A stretch of DNA of 20,106 nt from a virus: positions 1 through 20,106 of IMG/VR virus record IMGVR_UViG_3300032053_000683; one strand, given 5' to 3'. Shown one piece after another: positions 2,269-13,968 of this stretch. The notes below the pieces were generated by a model, which searched no databases, was not told the origin of the DNA, and worked only from the letters and a program-made list of their open reading frames with translations. Position 1 is the stretch's first letter, and each line of letters opens with the position of its first letter. Position numbers and translations under genes: made by a program.

Positions 2269-3686
2269 TAATCAAAACGTATCCCTGCTCTGGCAAATTT
2301 GTCTTTATCAACATCTTTGCCAACGCTTTTATAGATTTCGGTCGGGCTAGATTGTCCTGCGAGTTCATCTGCCAAATTCTGCTGGCTTTCTTCCACATCA
2401 TAAAGTCGCATCTTACTTCTATCTATACCTATGATAAATCTCTTGTGTTTCGTCACATCATTATCACGGTTCTTAAGCTGCTTGATCATCAACTGATTCA
2501 ATTTTTCCAGTTCCTCTCCGGTTACTGCTGCAAACATAAGATCTGCGGTAGCTGGAAGTCCAAATGATTCAGAAGTGTCCTCTAATCCCGGATCGGAGCT
2601 AGTATAGCCTGATCTTGTTGTCTGAGTAGCACTGACGATGGGTAGTTTGAACTCTACTGCAAGTCCTCGTAGCTCCTCTGCAATGGCTTTGATGTATGTA
2701 TATGAATTGACGTTATTTCCCTGCTTGATTCTTGAAGAGCAGCAGATGTTCAAATAATCAATGAATACGATATCTGGGATGAAGTGCTTCTTCAGAGCCA
2801 ATTCATTGAATAGGTTGCGAAAGTTTACAGAACTTGCCGATGCTGTAGGATATTCCTTGACAATCAGTTTACCCTTCACAGATTGTTTGAGACGTGCGAT
2901 CTTGCGATCATAATTCTCTTTTGGCATGAGCGCCAAGTCATCCATGGTGACATCTAATAGATTTGCATCTATGCGAGAAGCAATTCTCTCTTCAGACATT
3001 TCCATAGTGACATATAATACGTTATATCCCTGTGATAATGCTGATGAAGCGAAATGACACATCATTAAAGATTTACCGACATTTGTGCCAGCAAGAATGA
3101 TAGTCAAAGTCTTTGGAGGAATGCCACCTTTGGTGATCAAATTGAAATATTCTAGATCGAATGGGATTTTCTTTTCAGTACGATGATAGAAGTCGAAACG
3201 CTGACTAGCATCTTCTATGTAATCATGACCTACGTTTGGATCAAATGAAACTCCCAACGCATCAGAAAGAATTTTAGGAATTGCTCCCTTACCTTTCGTC
3301 TGCTTCTTACCTTCCTTATCATCAAGGATATTGATAGATTCTAGGATGGCACCATGTAATGCTTTTTCCTGACAAAACTTTTCAGTGATCTCTACAAGCC
3401 AATCTATATTGGAGTCCGTTGTATCTTTGTCGAGTTCTGTTAGAAGATTAGATGATTCTTTGAAATCGTCTTCAAAAACATTATCTCTACTCTCCAGTGA
3501 AATCTGGATCGCTTCCACGGTGGGCAGGTGGTTGTACTTTAGAATGTAATCCTGAATCTCCCGGAAAACGTGTCTTTCGCTTCTGTCTTGAATGTACTCT
3601 TCTTTTAGGTACGGAATTACCTTTCTTGCGAACGATTCGTTCCTCAAAAGGTTCTTCAATATAATCAACTCGATTTTCTTCATCAT
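2268..3686 (-). CDS. 41: Replicative DNA helicase gp41 (DnaB-like)
   Basis: The 472-aa protein is close in length to T4 gp41 (about 475 aa), the hexameric 5'-3' helicase that unwinds the fork and activates primase. The N-terminal 100 residues form the DnaB-type N domain. The RecA-like core has Walker A AGTNVGKS (199-206), Walker B with DIVFIDYLN (305-313) and the H3-type VSATQTTRSG segment (351-360). The start at 3686 is an ATGATG with a weak AGAG upstream, and the residues following it align in pattern with the T4 N-terminus, so the gene truly begins inside the preceding reading frame (200 nt overlap). It lies downstream of uvsX as in T4. The C-terminus, after about residue 440, is polar and looks flexible. 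The primase gp61 and loader gp59 are not in the window. Confidence 0.96.
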   Translation of the reverse strand: MMKKIELIILKNLLRNESFARKVIPYLKEEYIQDRSERHVFREIQDYILKYNHLPTVEAIQISLESRDNVFEDDFKESSNLLTELDKDTTDSNIDWLVEITEKFCQEKALHGAILESINILDDKEGKKQTKGKGAIPKILSDALGVSFDPNVGHDYIEDASQRFDFYHRTEKKIPFDLEYFNLITKGGIPPKTLTIILAGTNVGKSLMMCHFASSALSQGYNVLYVTMEMSEERIASRIDANLLDVTMDDLALMPKENYDRKIARLKQSVKGKLIVKEYPTASASSVNFRNLFNELALKKHFIPDIVFIDYLNICCSSRIKQGNNVNSYTYIKAIAEELRGLAVEFKLPIVSATQTTRSGYTSSDPGLEDTSESFGLPATADLMFAAVTGEELEKLNQLMIKQLKNRDNDVTKHKRFIIGIDRSKMRLYDVEESQQNLADELAGQSSPTEIYKSVGKDVDKDKFARAGIRFD

Positions 3687-4029
3687 TTAATATCTCTTTT
3701 CTCACATCTTTATAATTGCCGATTATATGCTCTAGACAATCAACAAATATATCTCCAGCTATTATACCGAACTTCTCATCAGAAGTAAAGCCAGAACCTT
3801 TCCCGGCTGGTGCTTCTATCCCAATAGGATCAAAAGAAATTCTGCCATCATCTAGCATAGTTATATTTTTATAACCAAAGACCGCACCTTCATATGGTCC
3901 TTTTAAAATCTGAATCGCCAGATTATATTGTTCAAGATGTTCTGTTACAATTTTGTATCCGACATCTAGCTCATATTTTGGATGGAAATAATTATTCCAC
4001 TTTTGTTTCAGTTTCGATAGAAGACCCAT
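3487..4029 (-). CDS. Conserved T4-like hypothetical protein with overprinted C-terminal tail
   Basis: 180 aa from the ATG at 4029, chosen because AAGGAG lies 8 nt upstream; the open frame extends further upstream but without a ribosome site and through uvsX. It overlaps the end of uvsX by 38 nt. Residues 1-110 contain a compact alpha/beta-looking region (LAIQILKGPYEGAVFGY, then a GDIFVDCLEHII helix), a type I recall in the uvsX-41 interval of T4-like phages. From residue 115 to the end the coding DNA also encodes the first 66 residues of gp41 in another frame; that tail is strongly basic (KKGNSVPKRRVHSRQKRKTR, 136-155) and then polar, so probably disordered and possibly nucleic-acid binding. 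T4 has gene 40 in this position, but I see no evidence for homology. Function unknown. Confidence 0.75.
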   Translation of the reverse strand: MGLLSKLKQKWNNYFHPKYELDVGYKIVTEHLEQYNLAIQILKGPYEGAVFGYKNITMLDDGRISFDPIGIEAPAGKGSGFTSDEKFGIIAGDIFVDCLEHIIGNYKDVRKEILNDEENRVDYIEEPFEERIVRKKGNSVPKRRVHSRQKRKTRFPGDSGLHSKVQPPAHRGSDPDFTGE

Positions 4030-5035
4030 ATTTAAACTCCTTCTTGGCAGCGCCATCAATCTGTTCCAGAAGTTCCTTTGTAAAGAACTTTTCTGGATCT
4101 TTGTATATGGCTTTCTCAAATGCTTTCTTTCCACCTGGAAATTCGTATTGGGTTGAAACTTTCTTTACAATGCCGTGTTTCTCAGCAAATTCTAGAATGC
4201 CATAATACCTATGCAACCCATGTTGATAATCAAGCAACGTTTCCACTTCCTTGTTTTCAACAGTCAAACGAGACTTATTGTTCTTTACTGTGATCAACGC
4301 ACCAGTAACTTCTTTTGTAGCATCATCACGCTTCTTGCTCTTGCTTAAGAACAAAATGGTTGATGCGGCATATTTAAGACCATCACCACCACTCATTTCC
4401 TTCATTGGAACATATGAACCAACTACATCGTATGTATGGTTGGTTACAAGTAGTGCTACACGAGCACGACCCAACTTGAGCGTTAGAACACGAAATGCTC
4501 CACGGATAAGCTGCGCTCTCGTCATATCGCGAGTATCCTTACCTTCGGCAATGTCTGCTACTTCTTTATTTGTAGACAACATACCCAGAGAATCTAGAAC
4601 TAGGAATAATGGTTTGCGCTTCTTTTCATCTTCTTCTAGATAAGCATCAATGATGCGTACAGCTTGTGAACGAAAGTCCTGAATGGTTACAACTGGGACT
4701 AGAAAGAAGCGTTCTGTATCAATACCACGTTCAACCAACTGATCAGTAGTTACAGCAGATTCAGATTCAAAATAGAATACTGCGCCTTCCTTGTTATTCT
4801 CTAGGAAATTCTTAGCAACGTGTAAAGCATAAAATGTCTTACCAGTTGAAGGACTTCCAGCTAATGCCGTGACCTTATTAGCAGCCAAGCCACCAAAAAT
4901 ACTCCCGGATAGGAGAGCATTCAATGAATAGCTTCCTGTATCTAGAAAAGTTTCTACGTCGGCATCGTTACCTTCGGAGACTCGGCTGGCATACTTGTTA
5001 TCAGCTGCCTTCATTAAATTATCAAAAAATGACAT
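3992..5035 (-). CDS. uvsX: UvsX recombinase (RecA-like)
   Basis: RecA/Rad51-family strand-exchange protein used in T4-like phages for recombination-dependent replication and repair. 347 aa, somewhat shorter than T4 UvsX (about 390). Walker A is GSPSTGKT (60-67), Walker B lies in LFLVLDSLGML (143-153), and the TNHTYDVVG segment with the following glycine-rich MSGGDGLKYAAS (about 214-225) fits the L1/L2 DNA-binding region. The start is fixed by AAGGA six nt before the ATG at 5035. It follows gp43 by 9 nt and overlaps the next gene by 38 nt, so it is probably co-translated with the replication genes. The partner UvsY is not in the window. The assignment is firm from motifs and synteny (43-uvsX-orf-41). 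Confidence 0.95.
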   Translation of the reverse strand: MSFFDNLMKAADNKYASRVSEGNDADVETFLDTGSYSLNALLSGSIFGGLAANKVTALAGSPSTGKTFYALHVAKNFLENNKEGAVFYFESESAVTTDQLVERGIDTERFFLVPVVTIQDFRSQAVRIIDAYLEEDEKKRKPLFLVLDSLGMLSTNKEVADIAEGKDTRDMTRAQLIRGAFRVLTLKLGRARVALLVTNHTYDVVGSYVPMKEMSGGDGLKYAASTILFLSKSKKRDDATKEVTGALITVKNNKSRLTVENKEVETLLDYQHGLHRYYGILEFAEKHGIVKKVSTQYEFPGGKKAFEKAIYKDPEKFFTKELLEQIDGAAKKEFKYGSSIETETKVE

Positions 5036-7834: not shown

Positions 7835-7909
7835 TGGAAGCGGGAGTTGGAATCGCACCAACGACCTCCGGATTATGAGTCCGATGCTCTACTTCTGAGC
7901 TATCCCGCA
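7835..7909 (-). tRNA. tRNA with anticodon CAT (Met or Ile2), CCA encoded
   Basis: The minus strand folds as a 75-nt cloverleaf: acceptor TGCGGGA/TCCCGCT, D stem GCTC/GAGC, anticodon stem TCGGA/TCCGG with loop CTCATAA (anticodon at 7877-7875), T stem GTTGG/CCAAC, then T73 and an encoded CCA at 7837-7835. The anticodon stem does not have the three consecutive G-C pairs of initiator tRNAs, so it is an elongator Met or a lysidine-modified Ile2 (AUA) tRNA; the sequence cannot tell which. Oddities are a U1-U72 mismatch, a T loop TGCGATT with G at position 55, and a short D loop AGAAGTA with a single G. It lies 5 nt after the stop of the upstream gene and 4 nt before the next ATG, so it must be cut from a polycistronic transcript. 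Confidence 0.88.
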
Positions 7910-8133: not shown

Positions 8134-8868
8134 TTATTTACTCTCTGTATTTAAAAATGATTCACACTTCTTCCAGAAGTTTTCTTGAACACCTGGATGA
8201 AATATTTGGAATGAATGCCAAAACATAGGTCTTGCTTCTTTACCATCTGATGCTAAATGACCAAATGTGGTGCCTCTTCCAACATGAGGCATGCCATCTT
8301 TGAGTGCCCATGAAGCGCACTCAGCTGGACTACTATCATACCCTAATGGCATATAAAAGTCAACAGGAACGATATTACTCTGTGATTCTGTAGCATATGT
8401 ATACTCTTCAGCAACATCTGCTCTCTTAGTTTCTAATCCACTTGGCTTATTAAGTGTTACAAAACTGTCTACACTTATGGCTAGACAAGAAGGAGCAACA
8501 AAAACATGTTGATTATTTTGAATGTGATTAGAACGTTGAATATTCCCAACTAGCCTACCGGCTGCTGCGGCTTTCATAGTTTCGTCTATAGCCTGATCAT
8601 TTAGAGGAATAGCATCTACGTCTAGAAACAAAATTACATCATGATCAAAACGTTTTTGAACCTCTGCACCGTCAAATGTGGTATGTGTAATACCATTTAG
8701 CACCCATGCTAAATCCAATGATGCCCCATGGCGCATATCTGTATGAATGCTGTAATGAACATAACCCTGTGGATTAAATTTATTAACAACACGTCTTTGT
8801 AGCTCTACAGTCTTCAGATCAATATTGTCCATGAAGAAAGAAATAATACATGCATTCGGCTTTTCCAT
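8134..8868 (-). CDS. Putative GT-A-fold transferase-like protein (DxD)
   Basis: 244 aa from the ATG at 8868, chosen because AAAGG precedes it and it starts one base after the upstream stop; a longer in-frame start inside the methyltransferase gene is less likely. The only clear signature is FLDVDAIPL (81-89), whose DVD after hydrophobic residues resembles the metal- and nucleotide-sugar-binding DxD of GT-A glycosyltransferases. Further on there are HVFVAPSCLAIS and HVGRGTTFGH segments and a terminal His/Trp-rich part (MFWHSFQIFHPG), as in transferases that move a sugar within a GT-A fold. No signal peptide is visible. It is the last member of the GT2, methyltransferase, methyltransferase group, with tight spacing. 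Acceptor and donor are unknown; the GT assignment is moderate. Confidence 0.55.
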   Translation of the reverse strand: MEKPNACIISFFMDNIDLKTVELQRRVVNKFNPQGYVHYSIHTDMRHGASLDLAWVLNGITHTTFDGAEVQKRFDHDVILFLDVDAIPLNDQAIDETMKAAAAGRLVGNIQRSNHIQNNQHVFVAPSCLAISVDSFVTLNKPSGLETKRADVAEEYTYATESQSNIVPVDFYMPLGYDSSPAECASWALKDGMPHVGRGTTFGHLASDGKEARPMFWHSFQIFHPGVQENFWKKCESFLNTESK

Positions 8869-8869
8869 T

Positions 8870-9562
8870 TTACACCTTTGGTTTTTCACATACAGCAATA
8901 TAGAGACCATTCCACCAAGTCTCAGCGTCCTGATTCTTTTCTTCAGGAGTCTTTAATTCCCATTCTTGATGAATGATTAAATTTGTTTCTTTGATACCAC
9001 GACGAGTTCCTGTCTTAGCAGGAGGATGATTCCAGTCATCTACAACAAAAATGAATACATCAGCTAGATTATCAATGTAATATGTTAGCGCATTACACTG
9101 ATCTTCATCTGTATGACCACCGTCATAGAAATATACATTGACGTCTTTGATCTCTTCTTTTTGTCGAGGATTCAATTTAAAGCAATCTGCTTCAATAAAG
9201 CAGTAATTCAATATCCCACTCTTCTTAGCATTTGCGTGAAATAGTGCTGCTGATGGATTTATTGAATTTCCAGTCGGTGTGTGCTTTATCTCAGATTCTT
9301 TACCAAACTCAGAAAAATTATCAATGGCGATGGCATTTGCATATTTGTTTCCGTATAATGCGGCGACAAATGTAGAACCTAACCAAACTCCAATTTCTAA
9401 ATAGCGATCGCCTTCTTTAATAAGATTGTTTAGGAGAACACGATTTCTGAAAGAAGCCATGCCCATCACATCAAATTCTACGGCAGTCAATTTAGTATAA
9501 CGACGCACTGCTTTGTCAATAGCAAGATCAATTCTACTAATGTAATCTTTCACTTTCTCCAT
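8870..9562 (-). CDS. Class I SAM-dependent methyltransferase-like protein (second of a pair)
   Basis: 230 aa. The SAM-binding motif I is YLEIGVWLGST (about 53-63), followed by the acidic end of strand 2 in AIAIDNF, a FIEADCFKL segment (motif III-like), and YFYDGGHTDED, the DGGH that family members with the Methyltransf_24-type fold use near the metal or substrate. FVVDDWN further on is the typical DDW after strand 5. The start is supported by GGAG 11 nt before the ATG at 9562, and it overlaps the preceding gene by 13 nt. It is followed by the DxD protein after a single base. The pair of related enzymes suggests duplication or consecutive methylations of a sugar. The substrate is unknown; a hydroxylase-like relative of the same fold cannot be excluded. 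Confidence 0.72.
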   Translation of the reverse strand: MEKVKDYISRIDLAIDKAVRRYTKLTAVEFDVMGMASFRNRVLLNNLIKEGDRYLEIGVWLGSTFVAALYGNKYANAIAIDNFSEFGKESEIKHTPTGNSINPSAALFHANAKKSGILNYCFIEADCFKLNPRQKEEIKDVNVYFYDGGHTDEDQCNALTYYIDNLADVFIFVVDDWNHPPAKTGTRRGIKETNLIIHQEWELKTPEEKNQDAETWWNGLYIAVCEKPKV

Positions 9563-10173
9563 ATAAATTTGGCTCCATGACCCTCAACATTCTGAACACC
9601 CCAAATAGAATCAACTGCTTCTTTAATCGGAACATGAAACCAATCATCTCCAATTAGAATTCCACCCGGTCTAATAATACTAGACCAATTCTGGAGATCA
9701 TTCAATACAGAGAAAAAATCGTGTCCGGCGTCGATGTACACTAGATCTGGAACAACATTAAAATTCTTAAGTGTAAGAAATGCGTTCTGTGAATCACATG
9801 GGAATGGGGTGATTATGTTTTGAAATCCAGTATGCAATGTATTAGATAAAAATTGATCGTATATTGTAGGACGACCATTTTTACAATCCATAATATATGA
9901 TGATCTATCCCACATTTCAACTGACCCTAGAAAAGTGTCTATACAAACAATTTCTAGATCTTCAATGCCTTGTGCAATAGCTGCGTTTGCCATATATCGA
10001 GCACTTCCGCCGAGCCATGTGCCAACTTCAACAATTAACTTTGGTTTGACTTCTGCAATCACTTCATCAAATGCAGGATGTTCACTTGACCAACCATGAC
10101 TGTTGAATGGTAGCTGTGCTACATCATAATATGGATCATGACCACCAAATAATAATTCTCTCACTTTCGCCAT
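9550..10173 (-). CDS. Class I SAM-dependent methyltransferase-like protein (first of a pair)
   Basis: 207 aa. Motif I is IVEVGTWLGGSARY (47-60), the strand-2 acidic residue lies in IVCIDTF, and LVYIDAGHDF plus GGILIGDDWFH follow, the same series of motifs as in the next gene downstream. This pattern fits the Methyltransf_24 and cephalosporin-hydroxylase-like group, which includes many sugar O-methyltransferases in glycan clusters. GGGAG lies 8 nt before the ATG at 10173. It overlaps the GT2 gene by 13 nt and the second methyltransferase by 13 nt, so the three are surely one translational unit. Likely cytoplasmic. The substrate cannot be deduced; a glycan is suggested only by the neighbours. 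Confidence 0.75.
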   Translation of the reverse strand: MAKVRELLFGGHDPYYDVAQLPFNSHGWSSEHPAFDEVIAEVKPKLIVEVGTWLGGSARYMANAAIAQGIEDLEIVCIDTFLGSVEMWDRSSYIMDCKNGRPTIYDQFLSNTLHTGFQNIITPFPCDSQNAFLTLKNFNVVPDLVYIDAGHDFFSVLNDLQNWSSIIRPGGILIGDDWFHVPIKEAVDSIWGVQNVEGHGAKFIWRK

Positions 10174-10913
10174 GGCAAAACTCCCTCATAACGTCTAAAC
10201 ATTTCCTCATTACCGTGCTTAAAAAAGTCCGGTTGAACTGAAAGAGGACTGTTACCAACAGTGTAGTTCACACTGTATTTATATGTACAATCAAAGTTAG
10301 GTGCGTGCTGTCTTAGTGTAGCACATATCACTCTATCTATTTCTGGTTGACCTGGTTCTCTGAACTTTCGGAACCAAATTGATGAAATTCCAACAGCAAG
10401 TTTTCTTGGTATAAGATAGCAATTCACATCAATAAAATAGTCTTGAGGATGTAGTACACTTGCCCACTTGCCTAAACTTTCGCAATCATCATTCCCTAGA
10501 TATTTCCCATCGACGTCCTGTAATTGTCTTAGAGAATATGCCCAGTCTCTACCACTATCAATAACTTGCAAGCAGTCAGATACGTGATCTGGAAGTAATG
10601 AATTATCGTCATCTAGAAATATTAGATGCTCACCATCAGCCAGATAACTTCCCGCACCATACATTCTATGTCCATTCCAACGATCTGTTCCGGTTGGATA
10701 TGGTAGATTGATTATGTCTAGACGATAATCAGATTTGTTGCTAAAATCTATTGTTTCCAATATATTTTCTACAACTGGTTTTCGGTTTGGTCCATCAACA
10801 AAAAGCAAATGCTGAATTGGTCTATGAGTTTGATTCATGACCGATTCAATGCATTTGCGTAATAGAGGATTGCCCGTTGTCGCTGTTATAATTGTTACGA
10901 GTGCTTTAGACAC
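10161..10913 (-). CDS. Glycosyltransferase family 2-like protein
   Basis: 250 aa with a GTG start at 10913, chosen because AAGGA lies 8 nt before it. The N-terminus is classic GT2: VTIITATTGNPLLRKCIESV, with a nucleotide-binding strand, then QHLLFVDGP, and the metal/UDP-sugar binding LIFLDDDNSLLPDH (DDD). The catalytic-base region cannot be placed with confidence; the C-terminal half has no membrane helix, so the enzyme is soluble. It opens the group of two methyltransferases and a DxD protein, after an 81-nt gap that separates it from the VWA gene. It probably transfers a sugar to a cell-surface glycan, a virion protein or modified DNA; which of these is not shown. Confidence 0.88.
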   Translation of the reverse strand: MSKALVTIITATTGNPLLRKCIESVMNQTHRPIQHLLFVDGPNRKPVVENILETIDFSNKSDYRLDIINLPYPTGTDRWNGHRMYGAGSYLADGEHLIFLDDDNSLLPDHVSDCLQVIDSGRDWAYSLRQLQDVDGKYLGNDDCESLGKWASVLHPQDYFIDVNCYLIPRKLAVGISSIWFRKFREPGQPEIDRVICATLRQHAPNFDCTYKYSVNYTVGNSPLSVQPDFFKHGNEEMFRRYEGVLPWRK

Positions 10914-10994: not shown

Positions 10995-11750
10995 TTATGG
11001 AGTTGCTACTGGTGCGCCTGATGTTGATAGATTAACTGTAACATTAACTGATGGTGCGGCGGCATCACCAGCCGAAACAATTGGAATGTTTCCACCCATA
11101 GATGCAGTTCTTTCAGAAAGTGTGAATGACGCTCCTGATGCTGCATAACCAACACCCTGCGGAGCAGCCTTGAATGTATTGAGAGAACGAGTCAGTGACT
11201 CATATGTTCCAGCGACACCAAGCTTGTTAGCACCAAATGTTAAAGAACTTCCTGCAGCAATACCATACTTGGCAGCTTCAGCAATAGCATTCTGATTAGC
11301 ACCTAAGAATACAAATTCCCACTTCCAAATATTGGTGTGCTCAGTGATCAAGGCATTCAACATATCTTTTGTTGTTCTATGACTAGCGTTTTCTTCTCCA
11401 TCTGTTAGAATAACGAAAATCACTTTGCCCGGACGATCGCTTTCCTTCAAAGAAGCAAAATGCTTACCAAGATCTCGAATAGTATCCGCAGCGGCATCAA
11501 GTAAAGCAGTGCCGCCTGCAGGAATATATGTCTTATTAGTTAGCTCGGCAACATCCTGAATGCGAGCAAGTTTGTAGGTGAAATTCTGATCAGTGGAAAA
11601 TTGTAATAGGGAGAACGTGTCTCCTTCTTTGGCAGTTTCTTTCTGCCCCGCAAGGAAGGCATTAAAGCCTCCTAGAGTGTCCTTAAGGATAGTCTGCATA
11701 GAACCAGACTTATCTAGAACCAATGTGATGTGCGTGTAATTCTCTTTCAT
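10995..11750 (-). CDS. von Willebrand factor type A (VWA) domain protein
   Basis: 251 aa. A VWA domain fills the first 190 residues, with a complete MIDAS metal site: DKSGS (13-17), Thr81 in PAGGTALLDA, and Asp117 in VILTDGEE. A long FLGANQNAIAEAAKYGI segment follows. The last 50 residues are Ala/Ser/Gly/Val-rich (GYAASGASFTLSER to the end), low in complexity and probably flexible. No signal peptide or membrane segment, so it is cytoplasmic, as for TerY-type VWA proteins. VWA domains bind protein partners through a metal ion, so this is likely an interaction module. It starts 3 nt after the metallophosphoesterase stop and is probably co-transcribed with it from the promoter at 12964-12992. 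The role in the phage is unknown. Confidence 0.9.
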   Translation of the reverse strand: MKENYTHITLVLDKSGSMQTILKDTLGGFNAFLAGQKETAKEGDTFSLLQFSTDQNFTYKLARIQDVAELTNKTYIPAGGTALLDAAADTIRDLGKHFASLKESDRPGKVIFVILTDGEENASHRTTKDMLNALITEHTNIWKWEFVFLGANQNAIAEAAKYGIAAGSSLTFGANKLGVAGTYESLTRSLNTFKAAPQGVGYAASGASFTLSERTASMGGNIPIVSAGDAAAPSVNVTVNLSTSGAPVATP

Positions 11751-11753
11751 ATA

Positions 11754-12563
11754 TTAAACCTCAAATGTAGTATTGATATCAAAATTTTCGTTCTCAGGGA
11801 ACGCGGGTTGCATTTGATTAGCATACCCTCTTGGATTACAAATAACCTGTGTCTCACCAATTATATAGGCATGAGAATCATGCGTATGACCATGCACCCA
11901 AACTTTAATCTGTTGATTATCTAATATAATTGATTCCAAACTTGTGTAGTAAGCATAGTTCAGAGGATTATTCACACCATAGCGTGGATGACTACTCTTC
12001 ACAGAGGGAGCCATGTGGGTCATTACGATAACTTTCTTATCCTTGTTTTCTGCAAGGAACTTTTTAAGAGAGTCAATAGCAAGACGATGATCAGCAACCG
12101 TGTCATCAGGATGAAGAGTTCTTTTATCATCTTTCATGATAATATCATAGTCATTCATTCCACGACGTGCATGCATCTTAATAATCGTATCATTATGCAT
12201 CATATCTGTCCATAGAGTAGCTCCCCAAAGAACGATATCGTTCTCAAGAGTTACACTTTCTTTTTCTAGAAGAGTGACATTAGTATCACTTAGAAAGTCG
12301 CGCAATACTGGTAAAGTTATTTCCCAGCTGCCGCTATAATGCTCATGATTTCCCATGATATAATATGCTTTATCATATTTTGCACATTGTACCTTGAAGA
12401 ATTCTCTATAACGGTCACGTTGTAGTATAGCAGTTTTATCTGTCCTGTGCGGCTGAAGATATGTGGCGAGCGCAATATCTCCTGCAAGAAGAAGATTATC
12501 TCCTCCCGGAAGTTTCAGATCGCAAAATTCTAGATGAATATCGCTTAATAAATTAAATTTCAT
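11754..12563 (-). CDS. Calcineurin-like metallophosphoesterase
   Basis: 269 aa from the ATG at 12563, which puts the family-typical opening MKFNLLSDIHLEF at the N-terminus; a GTG 12 nt upstream is possible. All metallophosphoesterase motifs are present: SDIH (7-10, Asp8 and His10), GD (28-29), GNHE (71-74), a THMAP segment near residue 187 and GHTH near residue 230, which together hold two metal ions. Such enzymes cut phosphomonoesters or diesters in nucleotides, nucleic acids or proteins. It overlaps the DUF1289 gene by 11 nt and ends 3 nt before the VWA gene. It is cytoplasmic. The substrate is not evident, and the small size argues against the SbcD/gp47 recombination nuclease, which is longer. 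Confidence 0.93.
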   Translation of the reverse strand: MKFNLLSDIHLEFCDLKLPGGDNLLLAGDIALATYLQPHRTDKTAILQRDRYREFFKVQCAKYDKAYYIMGNHEHYSGSWEITLPVLRDFLSDTNVTLLEKESVTLENDIVLWGATLWTDMMHNDTIIKMHARRGMNDYDIIMKDDKRTLHPDDTVADHRLAIDSLKKFLAENKDKKVIVMTHMAPSVKSSHPRYGVNNPLNYAYYTSLESIILDNQQIKVWVHGHTHDSHAYIIGETQVICNPRGYANQMQPAFPENENFDINTTFEV

Positions 12564-12753
12564 TTCTTTCTTCACAATTCTTCAAAATTAAACTCTTGGT
12601 GGCATCATCTGCCGTATCCCATTCAATGATCTCGGGAATAGAGCGAAAACAGCCAACACAAAATCCTGTCTGGCTACTTATAAAACAGTTGTTGTTACAT
12701 GGTGACGTCGTTGGCGGTGGAATTTTATTCCAGACGTCATTCAAGTCACGCAT
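12553..12753 (-). CDS. DUF1289-like small cysteine protein
   Basis: 66 aa. The pattern SPCNNNC (18-23), then GFCVGCFRSIPEIIEW (30-45), gives four cysteines at 19, 23, 32 and 35 followed by the R-(S/T)-x-x-E-I-x-x-W signature of DUF1289 proteins, which are thought to bind a metal or Fe-S cluster; their function is not known. The family is mainly found in Proteobacteria, and so this gene hints at the host group. The ATG at 12753 overlaps the end of the preceding small gene by 8 nt (ATGCGTGA), and the metallophosphoesterase starts before it ends. It has no ribosome site better than an A-rich run, which suggests coupled translation. Confidence 0.82.
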   Translation of the reverse strand: MRDLNDVWNKIPPPTTSPCNNNCFISSQTGFCVGCFRSIPEIIEWDTADDATKSLILKNCEERNEI

Positions 12754-12934
12754 TTTTTCTTTTCAAGTTAATCAGTGGCTTCATATCATGAAGCCCTATT
12801 GACTTAAGAAATTCTCTTGAGGATCGCATCTTTTCTTCAAAAGAAACATTCCCAAACTTCTCCGAACTCTCCTCCGGAGTGAAGGACTTTCTAACAGCCA
12901 ATTTCAACTTGGGATTTGTAATTCTATATCTCAT
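12746..12934 (-). CDS. Hypothetical 62-aa protein, first gene after promoter
   Basis: 62 aa, basic at both ends and acidic in the centre, without a recognisable motif. The ATG at 12934 has GGA about 7 nt upstream, and a sigma70-type promoter lies just before it, giving a leader of about 23 nt. The 8-nt overlap with DUF1289 points to coupled translation. Being first in a short operon it is likely made early in infection (inference). Function unknown. Confidence 0.6.
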   Translation of the reverse strand: MRYRITNPKLKLAVRKSFTPEESSEKFGNVSFEEKMRSSREFLKSIGLHDMKPLINLKRKNA

Positions 12935-12963
12935 TTAAAATCCAAATTTAATCAGATACTTAT

Positions 12964-12992
12964 ATTATACGCTACTATACGACTAATGTAAA
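12964..12992 (-). promoter_or_regulatory. Sigma70-type early promoter P3
   Basis: On the minus strand TTTACA (12992-12987) and TATAAT (12969-12964) are separated by 17 bp, the ideal spacing. The -10 is followed by ATAAG, so the start would be near 12957, about 23 nt before the ATG of the 62-aa gene. The segment from the spacer end to the -10 (AGTAGCGTATAATATA) matches the promoter before gp45 at 15 of 16 positions. It lies in the gap after the dCMP deaminase gene, so it should drive the 62-aa gene, DUF1289, the phosphoesterase and the VWA gene. Confidence 0.85.
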
Positions 12993-13012
12993 GCAATATA
13001 ACTGCAATAGGA

Positions 13013-13486
13013 TCAACTAGTTGCGGTAAGTACAGGGAAATCATAAACATATTCGACAAGTTCTACTCCCATCTCTGCAGCATATCTTTTGGTCTTATCA
13101 AAGGCATCGCTCCAGCGAACTAGTTGGTCTGGGCTGGCGATAGGAGCAACGATACGTGTTATTCCTGCCTGCGCTACCTGAACCACACAACGATCGCACG
13201 GAATGAAGGGAATTGTGTACAGAGTATATCCATGAACTGGTTCTCTAGCTGCAAAAATCGCATTCATTTCACCATGAACAATTCGGCTATATTTCTCGTC
13301 TCGGTTTGAATAAAGCTTGGCATCATCTGGCATCATCTTTGGAAAGCCATTAAAACCAACAGAAGCAACCGTCCTATCTGGACGAACTATTACCGCACCA
13401 ACCTTGGTACTAGGATCCTTGCTCCAACTAGAAATTGTTCTAGCTAAATCAAGAAATCTAAGATCCCATTTCTTTATATTATCCAT
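13013..13486 (-). CDS. Deoxycytidylate (dCMP) deaminase
   Basis: Zinc enzyme that deaminates dCMP to dUMP for dTMP synthesis. I prefer the ATG at 13486 (157 aa): AGGA lies 8 nt upstream, and the protein then opens with MDNIKKWDLRFLDLA, typical of the family; an ATG at 13534 that overlaps the preceding stop is the alternative (173 aa). The zinc site is HGE (71-73; most relatives have HAE) and PCDRC (96-100). KDPSTKVGAVIV (23-34) fits the family's N-terminal segment. The extra zinc-site insert of T4 dCMP deaminase is absent, so it is the compact type. It is the last gene of the P2 set, followed by the P3 promoter. It would work alongside gp1 kinase in nucleotide supply. Confidence 0.92.
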   Translation of the reverse strand: MDNIKKWDLRFLDLARTISSWSKDPSTKVGAVIVRPDRTVASVGFNGFPKMMPDDAKLYSNRDEKYSRIVHGEMNAIFAAREPVHGYTLYTIPFIPCDRCVVQVAQAGITRIVAPIASPDQLVRWSDAFDKTKRYAAEMGVELVEYVYDFPVLTATS

Positions 13487-13530
13487 CAAAGTTATCCTAG
13501 CGGCGTCATAGGTGTTTGGATTCTTTAGAA

Positions 13531-13968
13531 TCATTCGCGATTTCTCGGTCCGTAGCCGCTGGGATTCTCAGGACCCCAAAGACCAGCTTCCTTCAGAGGA
13601 TCGATTTTTATTTCAAACGCAGGATCAATCCAATCAACAACGCCAGTAATGGGAGCAGTCGTAGTAACACTTTGTTCCTTGCAACAAGATTCTCCCGCTT
13701 CTTCTCGAGCAGCATAATCATTACAATTATCACCTTTTGTCTCAGAGTATTTCTTATTAAACTCACCTTGCGCGCACAGACTTTCAAAAATATTCCAAAG
13801 TTTCTCAAACTTCAATTGATACAGACCTTCCAGCCCCATTGTAATATTGGCAATATCGTCAGTAGACATATCTTGTTCTAGAACACCTTCCGTTAGAACT
13901 TTCATATCCTCAACAATTCCCCAACAATTCATAATTGCTTGTTCTAAATCAAATCTATCGTTGCTCAT
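13531..13968 (-). CDS. Conserved T4-like phage hypothetical protein (145 aa)
   Basis: 145 aa from the ATG at 13968, chosen because GGGAG is 5 nt upstream; a GTG 12 nt earlier is unlikely as it would place the ribosome site inside the gene. The N-terminus MSNDRFDLEQAIMNCWGIVED and the following VLEQDMSTDDIANITMGLEGLY helical region are of a type I recall in uncharacterised T4-like phage proteins. The C-terminal half holds two adjacent cysteines in GESCCKEQ, then a Pro-rich tail GLWGPENPSGYGPRNRE. No enzyme motif. It sits two bases after the stop of the upstream gene and before the deaminase. Function unknown. Confidence 0.75.
   Translation of the reverse strand: MSNDRFDLEQAIMNCWGIVEDMKVLTEGVLEQDMSTDDIANITMGLEGLYQLKFEKLWNIFESLCAQGEFNKKYSETKGDNCNDYAAREEAGESCCKEQSVTTTAPITGVVDWIDPAFEIKIDPLKEAGLWGPENPSGYGPRNRE

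Follow-up and report, generated by a model that had tools for sequence, protein, structure and literature searches.

The stretch of DNA analyzed here, a complete IMG/VR virus record of 20,106 bases (IMGVR_UViG_3300032053_000683), referred to below as the window, carries on its minus strand a run of four closely packed genes, which encode a protein of 62 amino acids (aa), a DUF1289 protein, a calcineurin-like metallophosphoesterase (MPE) and a protein with a von Willebrand factor type A (VWA) domain. The run is placed between a regA-like gene and gene 43 of a T4-like replication block, and a match to the sigma70 promoter consensus lies ahead of it:

12964..12992, minus strand: sigma70-like promoter match, TTTACA-17-TATAAT, 11 of 12 consensus bases; a consensus match only
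12746..12934, minus strand: 62-aa protein, first gene of the run, with a homologue in the related locus L192
12553..12753, minus strand: DUF1289 protein, 66 aa (PF06945, E 5.8e-16, 58.5 bits against a curated cut-off of 27)
11754..12563, minus strand: calcineurin-like MPE, 269 aa from the ATG; an alternative GTG at 12575 gives 273 aa
10995..11750, minus strand: VWA protein, 251 aa (PF00092, E 1.7e-6; phrog_7371, E 5.1e-47)

The four genes and the tight junctions described in the original prediction, which was made from the sequence of the window, are real, and the three families it named are all matched by profile. The 62-aa and DUF1289 genes overlap by 8 nucleotides (nt), DUF1289 and MPE overlap by 11 nt with the MPE ATG, or by 23 nt with the GTG start, and MPE and VWA are separated by 3 nt. 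Open reading frames (ORFs) were called from the first ATG, GTG or TTG, a procedure by which some starts fall too early and overlaps may shift by tens of nt; for the MPE, the ATG is the likelier start, because the proteins of relatives begin at that methionine or one residue earlier.

Whether the genes are linked in any other phage had been set beforehand as the test of the original prediction, and they are: in a map of this uncultured T4-like clade, comprising 23 loci with the window included, four loci, namely the window, L192 and the near-identical L111 and L112, share both the order of the DUF1289, MPE and VWA genes and their position. DUF1289 is followed by MPE, without VWA, in L114, and MPE by VWA, without DUF1289, in L204. 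An overlap between DUF1289 and MPE is present in the window, L192 (23 nt), L111 (4 nt), L112 and L114 (11 nt), and the MPEs of L192, L111 and L114 are 46–49% identical to that of the window. In a further locus, L310, which also holds regA-like and dCMP deaminase-like genes, DUF1289 lies 228 nt ahead of MPE. None of the three genes was found in L193, L194 and L197, of which only L193 belongs to a large record (257 kb), where a search found neither MPE nor VWA. Many of the mapped contigs are short, and absences in the map are therefore weak. The author of the original prediction knew of no description of the combination, and none was found in the literature that our searches turned up.

Linkage was further assessed in samples of viral contigs, consisting of the best 80 of at least 589 confirmed VWA stretches, 80 of at least 497 for MPE and 80 of 205 for DUF1289, each scan being limited by its patterns. 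The profiles of this MPE and of DUF1289 matched in 0 of the 80 VWA loci, whose flanks reach up to 6 kb, and the nearest phosphoesterase found by motif is 2.5 kb away, in L096; this sample under-counts linkage, because L192, L111, L112 and L204 are not part of it. The VWA profile matched in 2 of the 80 MPE loci, and in each of them, L111 and L112, VWA immediately follows the MPE. DUF1289 was detected in 11 of the 80 MPE records (8 of 50 plus 3 of 30), ten times within the locus itself, compared with 0 of the 80 VWA loci, for which equally long flanks were examined; the two genes overlap in three of these ten loci and are 1.9–2.5 kb apart in the other seven. Among the 80 DUF1289 loci, MPE is present in five (L192, L111, L112, L114 and L310) and VWA in three. 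When 90 VWA records were searched whole, DUF1289 was found in two, G002 and LR756501, in the latter far from VWA, and phrog_1649, the family of the MPE, at 80 bits or more in 12, at distances from VWA of 5.2 to 305 kb and none closer. Matches to phrog_1649 at E up to 0.001 were rejected as evidence of co-occurrence, being too unspecific: they were obtained in 34 of the 90 VWA records but in 14 of 14 control genomes. In a genome collection, DUF1289 or VWA was found in 0 of 80 MPE loci with flanks of up to 5 kb; one of these loci, L208, contains uvsX-like and gp41-like genes and is phage-like. Within these samples, the linkage is found only in phages, is bound to the clade and is optional.

Relatives were reached only by alignment-based scans: when the VWA, MPE or polymerase of the window served as single queries, the scans returned little beyond the window's own phage in two other samples and one distant polymerase. 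A scan with u258, a conserved protein encoded downstream of the run, gave 17 loci, two of which are the window's own phage, and contributed L192 and L204. Two candidates were not counted as instances of linkage, since the MPE profile does not match them. In the jumbo phage LR745208 (L004:7989-9755), a VWA gene lies 7 nt before a phosphoesterase ORF that is, by eye, of the SbcD/Mre11 type, and an SMC-like gene is found upstream; phrog_1649 matches this record at another place. In Pseudomonas phage psageK4, a Metallophos protein (E 1.4e-5) is encoded 2.5 kb behind VWA.

In a tree of the polymerases, the window, L116, L203, L114, L111, L112 and L204 fall on one side of a branch with support of 90/90, and the loci in which VWA stands by u258 form another group (100/100). 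The highest polymerase identity to the window within the tree is only 58%, so the gene order has persisted through much divergence. L192 includes too little of the polymerase for placement; its u258 is the nearest to that of the window (67%). In the simplest reading, the linked order would have been present early in the first of the two polymerase groups, and would later have been broken or lost in some members. In the MPE tree, the label of an overlapping DUF1289 needs two changes, and a single origin is not settled. The wider group of all nine VWAs of the clade has support of only 57/9.

The surrounding minus-strand genes form a T4-like replication block, in which PHROG matches identify the clamp (gp45), clamp loader (gp44), gp43 polymerase, UvsX and a gp41-like helicase. 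The regA-like gene is named from a DNA match to a cyanophage gene with the annotation translational repressor, and gp62 from position alone; the order gp45, gp44, gp62, regA, gp43, uvsX, gp41 is T4-like. In 50,697 phage records, the closest polymerases, from marine viruses and cyanophages, are 47% identical to that of the window. Near-identical copies of the window phage are present in L007 and L008; neither extends to the MPE gene, and L007 ends within the VWA gene. The genes flanking the run include:

13013..13534, minus strand: dCMP deaminase-like gene (PF00383, E 1.9e-15), upstream neighbor of the run
10161..10913, minus strand: glycosyltransferase family 2 (GT2) gene (PF00535, E 4.4e-8), after a gap of 81 nt from the VWA gene
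8134..8910, minus strand: u258, conserved protein, adjoining the VWA gene in six relatives

No Pfam or NCBIfam match was obtained for u258. The regA-to-43 block, with its CDO-like, dCMP deaminase-like, GT2 and u258 genes, keeps a rough synteny across the clade.

The promoter proposed to drive the run can be recognized as a match, at 11 of 12 positions (12992-12964), within the 78-nt gap 12935-13012 ahead of the 62-aa gene, although it falls just outside the range originally assigned to the operon. The window contains three sites with at least 11 of 12 matches, each of them on the coding strand, compared with a mean of 0.78 and a maximum of 4 in 60 shuffles; at the looser cut-off of 9 of 12, the 82 sites found, against a shuffle mean of 62.8 (standard deviation 7.0), represent a mild enrichment. 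Since cyanomyoviruses are thought to transcribe their early genes with unmodified host RNA polymerase and sigma70 (PMC2984593), a sigma70-like early promoter is reasonable here, and the promoter match and the surrounding replication genes make early expression of the run plausible. A test for T4 late promoters was uninformative, because a single exact TATAAATA was found in the window (10276-10283) when 1.52 were expected. The TTGCTTTA ahead of the run was also considered as a T4 middle promoter element (MotA box), a reading abandoned because the spacing to the -10 element looked wrong.

A promoter-led operon of four genes fits the window only. In L192, the run opens with the 62-aa homologue and an extra 112-aa gene, the sole promoter-like site in the gap before it is weak (9 of 12, TTGCAA-17-TAAAAT), and the VWA ORF overlaps the GT2 ORF by 4 nt; in L111 and L114, the dCMP deaminase-like gene overlaps DUF1289, so that no promoter gap is left ahead of the latter. 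The operon originally proposed, four genes led by a promoter match, thus holds for the window, where its 3' end after VWA is putative, but it is not the conserved feature. What is conserved is DUF1289-MPE, usually with VWA, within a longer run. A gene for a small protein directly follows VWA in L111:7775-8050 (91 aa) and L204:8892-9110 (72 aa), the N-termini of both containing ...FDNVKVGD...; the window has no gene at this spot.

The 62-aa protein gave no match in Pfam, PHROG and NCBIfam scans. It is nevertheless not fully the orphan it had been taken for: a homologue is encoded at the equivalent spot in L192, with a local score of 65 against a shuffled mean of 23.3 (standard deviation 4.5), a value reached in 0 of 2000 shuffles. 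The description of the next protein as a four-cysteine DUF1289 member is borne out by the PF06945 match and by residues C19, C23, C32 and C35, invariant in eight aligned sequences. These features are shared with the DUF1289/YdhL family, of which, in contrast, no member was found near MPE in the 80 loci of the genome collection. No clear solved relative of the protein emerged (best E 0.08). In isolated phages, the window DUF1289 has no homologue at E 0.01, and that of L111 a single weak match (E 2e-3); a DUF1289 ORF of Oceanospirillum phage GJ44 is, however, named in PMC8451122. Overexpression screens for resistance to H2O2 and HOCl picked up E. coli ydhL (PMC8228696), a result that has no bearing on phages.

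The MPE matches PF00149 (Metallophos; E 3e-10, 41.3 bits against a cut-off of 21.5) and, over nearly its full length, phrog_1649 (E 3.5e-47, 161.5 bits), and thus belongs to the same family as metallophosphoesterases of cyanomyoviruses, Vibrio phages and jumbo phages, found by tblastn in 149 phage records. In one of these phages, Synechococcus phage B23, this VWA family was not found in a 16.8-kb stretch, nor DUF1289 in the whole record. Judged against the dimetal motif pattern, the metal-site residues are D12, H14, D33, N76, H77, H187, H230 and H232 (273-aa numbering), all invariant in 45 sequences. The AlphaFold2 model (pLDDT 94.9) has its best match among solved structures in PptH (6unc; Z 22.6 over 245 residues, 3.3 A, 14% identity), followed by many phosphoesterases at Z 17.1 and lower, a margin of 5.5 Z units. 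PptH is a phosphopantetheinyl hydrolase of Mycobacterium tuberculosis with a Mn-Fe center, which takes phosphopantetheine off carrier proteins (PMC8557913). PptH is however missing among the five chains retrieved by the MPE family profile at E up to 10, no sequence similarity being detected, and the identity over the structural alignment is low; because the profile misses PptH, the likeness hints at the kind of pocket and not at the substrate. For the role in host takeover or anti-defense suggested in the original prediction, a PADLOC scan of ten window proteins gave no direct evidence: the MPE alone matched, with a single model, PDC-S10, which carries no description (E 1.3e-10).

The VWA protein consists of one domain, the fold beginning at the N-terminus, with a full metal ion-dependent adhesion site (MIDAS), D13-x-S15-x-S17, T81 and D117; D13, S17, T81 and D117 are invariant and S15 is at least 90% conserved in 59 sequences. 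It scores 28.8 bits with PF00092 (cut-off 23.8), its phrog_7371 match spans residues 2-200, and the AlphaFold2 model (pLDDT 91.9, with a tail of low confidence from about residue 220) is nearest, among solved folds, to integrin I domains (Z 19.3). The VWAs of L111 and L192 fall narrowly below the Pfam cut-off (23.5 and 23.4 bits) and are strong matches to the family profile. Phage proteins of the same family, phrog_7371, were found by tblastn in 207 phage records; they differ from the window VWA in their surroundings, as the sample of 80 viral-contig loci shows, and homologues elsewhere in phages have many different immediate neighbors. In five actinophages (loci among L005 and L012-L016) the VWA gene of this family stands beside tRNA genes, and in Gordonia phage Mareelih it caps a long tRNA array, with a gene for a Ro-like RNA-binding protein at the opposite end; these neighbors may be a sign that the protein takes part in RNA handling. 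In L012, L013, L015 and L016, the VWA gene is immediately preceded by a small ORF of 83-104 aa.

The linked genes represent a real, modestly conserved cassette, made of common parts. We tentatively propose, at somewhat less than even chances for the proposal as a whole, that DUF1289-MPE-VWA is an optional, translationally coupled accessory cassette with a joint role, located, in this clade, in the variable stretch that separates the regA-like gene from gene 43. Host RNA polymerase would transcribe it early or in the middle phase, together with the surrounding replication genes, and transcription would read on into sugar-modifying genes. The enzyme would be the MPE, as a dimetal phosphoesterase with a phosphate ester of host or phage as its substrate; DUF1289, coupled to the MPE through the overlap, would be its small metal-binding partner; and VWA would serve as an adaptor, whose MIDAS metal could hold a carboxylate-bearing target and aim the MPE at it. 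The cassette would thus tune host or phage metabolism during takeover, rather than act as a TerY-type signaling switch.

Several observations speak against this proposal. VWA stands instead between u258 and u72 in six of the 23 mapped loci (G002, L200, L053, L054, L201 and L202). In G002 (locus L195, 172.6 kb) all three genes are present but dispersed, with MPE 38.8 kb from VWA and DUF1289 about 7 kb upstream, and yet its polymerase matches that of the window at a lower E-value than the polymerases of L111, L112 and L114. L113, L115, L116, L117 and L196 carry MPE without either partner in the stretch covered, L203 has MPE and, where the contig stops after the polymerase gene, the start of VWA, and L198 and L199 have DUF1289 without MPE or VWA. 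Seven of the ten loci with DUF1289 near MPE form a second group, the four placed on the tree making up one tight branch of near relatives. Finally, the window VWA lies on a long branch, a grouping with L192 and L111 alone gaining no support without being rejected (AU p 0.104), and could have taken the place of an earlier copy at this site.

The strongest rival, to which we give about equal weight, is that the three are unrelated accessory genes which share a variable region in one clade, neighbors by descent with no joint function. Each is widespread alone in viral contigs, with the numbers of stretches given above, they sit apart in some relatives, the 80 MPE loci of the genome collection have neither partner in the flanks covered, and the whole regA-to-43 block keeps its rough synteny anyway. 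It is less easily reconciled with the overlap of DUF1289 and MPE maintained in five loci in spite of the divergence of the MPEs, with the coming and going of other genes of the interval, and with the pair found in L310, at its 228-nt gap. According to another explanation, which we consider improbable, MPE and VWA are sugar-modifying cargo, serving the downstream glycosyltransferase, methyltransferase and u258 genes, for example by clearing by-products of nucleotide sugars. The 4-nt overlap of VWA with GT2 in L192, the adjacency of u258 and VWA in six relatives and the presence of GT2 homologues in 15, and of u258 homologues in 14, of the 80 DUF1289 loci would fit, whereas in G002, where VWA and u258 adjoin, the MPE is 38.8 kb off, and the VWA homologues of other phages have varied immediate neighbors. 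More speculative still, and very improbable, is a carrier-protein hydrolase module, in which the MPE would remove phosphopantetheine or a similar phosphodiester from one of the host's carrier proteins and so stall host lipid synthesis, with DUF1289 supporting its metal site and VWA docking it to the target; we know of no such phage system, the literature not having been searched for one.

The original prediction had compared the run with bacterial TerY-type stress systems, a kinship that the analysis does not support. TerY-P consists of a VWA protein, a PP2C-like phosphatase and a kinase-zinc-ribbon protein (PMC11090510), and the run resembles this triad in that the genes next to that of a MIDAS-containing VWA encode an enzyme of phosphatase type and a small protein with four cysteines. 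It differs in that TerY-P includes a PP2C and a kinase, in a bacterial defense or stress locus, while the phosphatase of the run is a calcineurin-like MPE, with no kinase found, in a phage replication region. Neither PP2C_2 (PF13672) nor Pkinase (PF00069) was found in any of ten clade records, G002 included, which are mostly fragments but cover the linked genes themselves. Moreover, the window VWA scores 18.6 bits with the Pfam vWA-TerF-like family, under the cut-off of 29.4, and no other Ter family is among the Pfam matches of the scanned window proteins. General stress protein 16U is a relative of TerD. The gene table of Ralstonia phage RsoM2USA (PMC8504454) names three consecutive ORFs 'general stress protein 16U' (ORF17), 'DUF475' (ORF18) and 'von Willebrand factor type A' (ORF19). 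This order suggests that the VWA genes of some phages are accompanied by Ter-type genes and, insofar as ORF19 belongs to the VWA family of the window, may favor the comparison. With neither kinase nor PP2C found in these clade records, the reading of the run as a phage TerY-P-like or Ter-type metal-sensing switch is weakened, and we regard it as the least probable of all.

A guess from one contig has in this way become a conserved gene neighborhood with natural variants, with or without VWA and with or without DUF1289. Such variants offer a ready comparison for a joint role of two very common phage families, VWA, which PHROGs lists without a function, and the metallophosphoesterase; if the products form a complex, this would give a handle on both.

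Homologues of GT2 and u258 accompany DUF1289 in nine further loci that do not belong to the mapped clade (L291-L294, L296, L308, L353, L354 and L356); two of these, L291 and L292, encode a small protein and one of 250 aa between DUF1289 and the GT2-like gene. Elsewhere in the window, a tRNA-Met (CAT) gene (7835-7909, minus strand) is flanked by two small genes and lies just upstream of the polymerase gene. A 215-aa ORF (3487-4134, minus strand) overlaps with its ends the gp41-like gene and uvsX; homologues are located between uvsX and gp41 in seven mapped relatives, L114 (cut), L194, L195, L196, L198, L199 and L200, and by its position the ORF may correspond to T4 gene 40.

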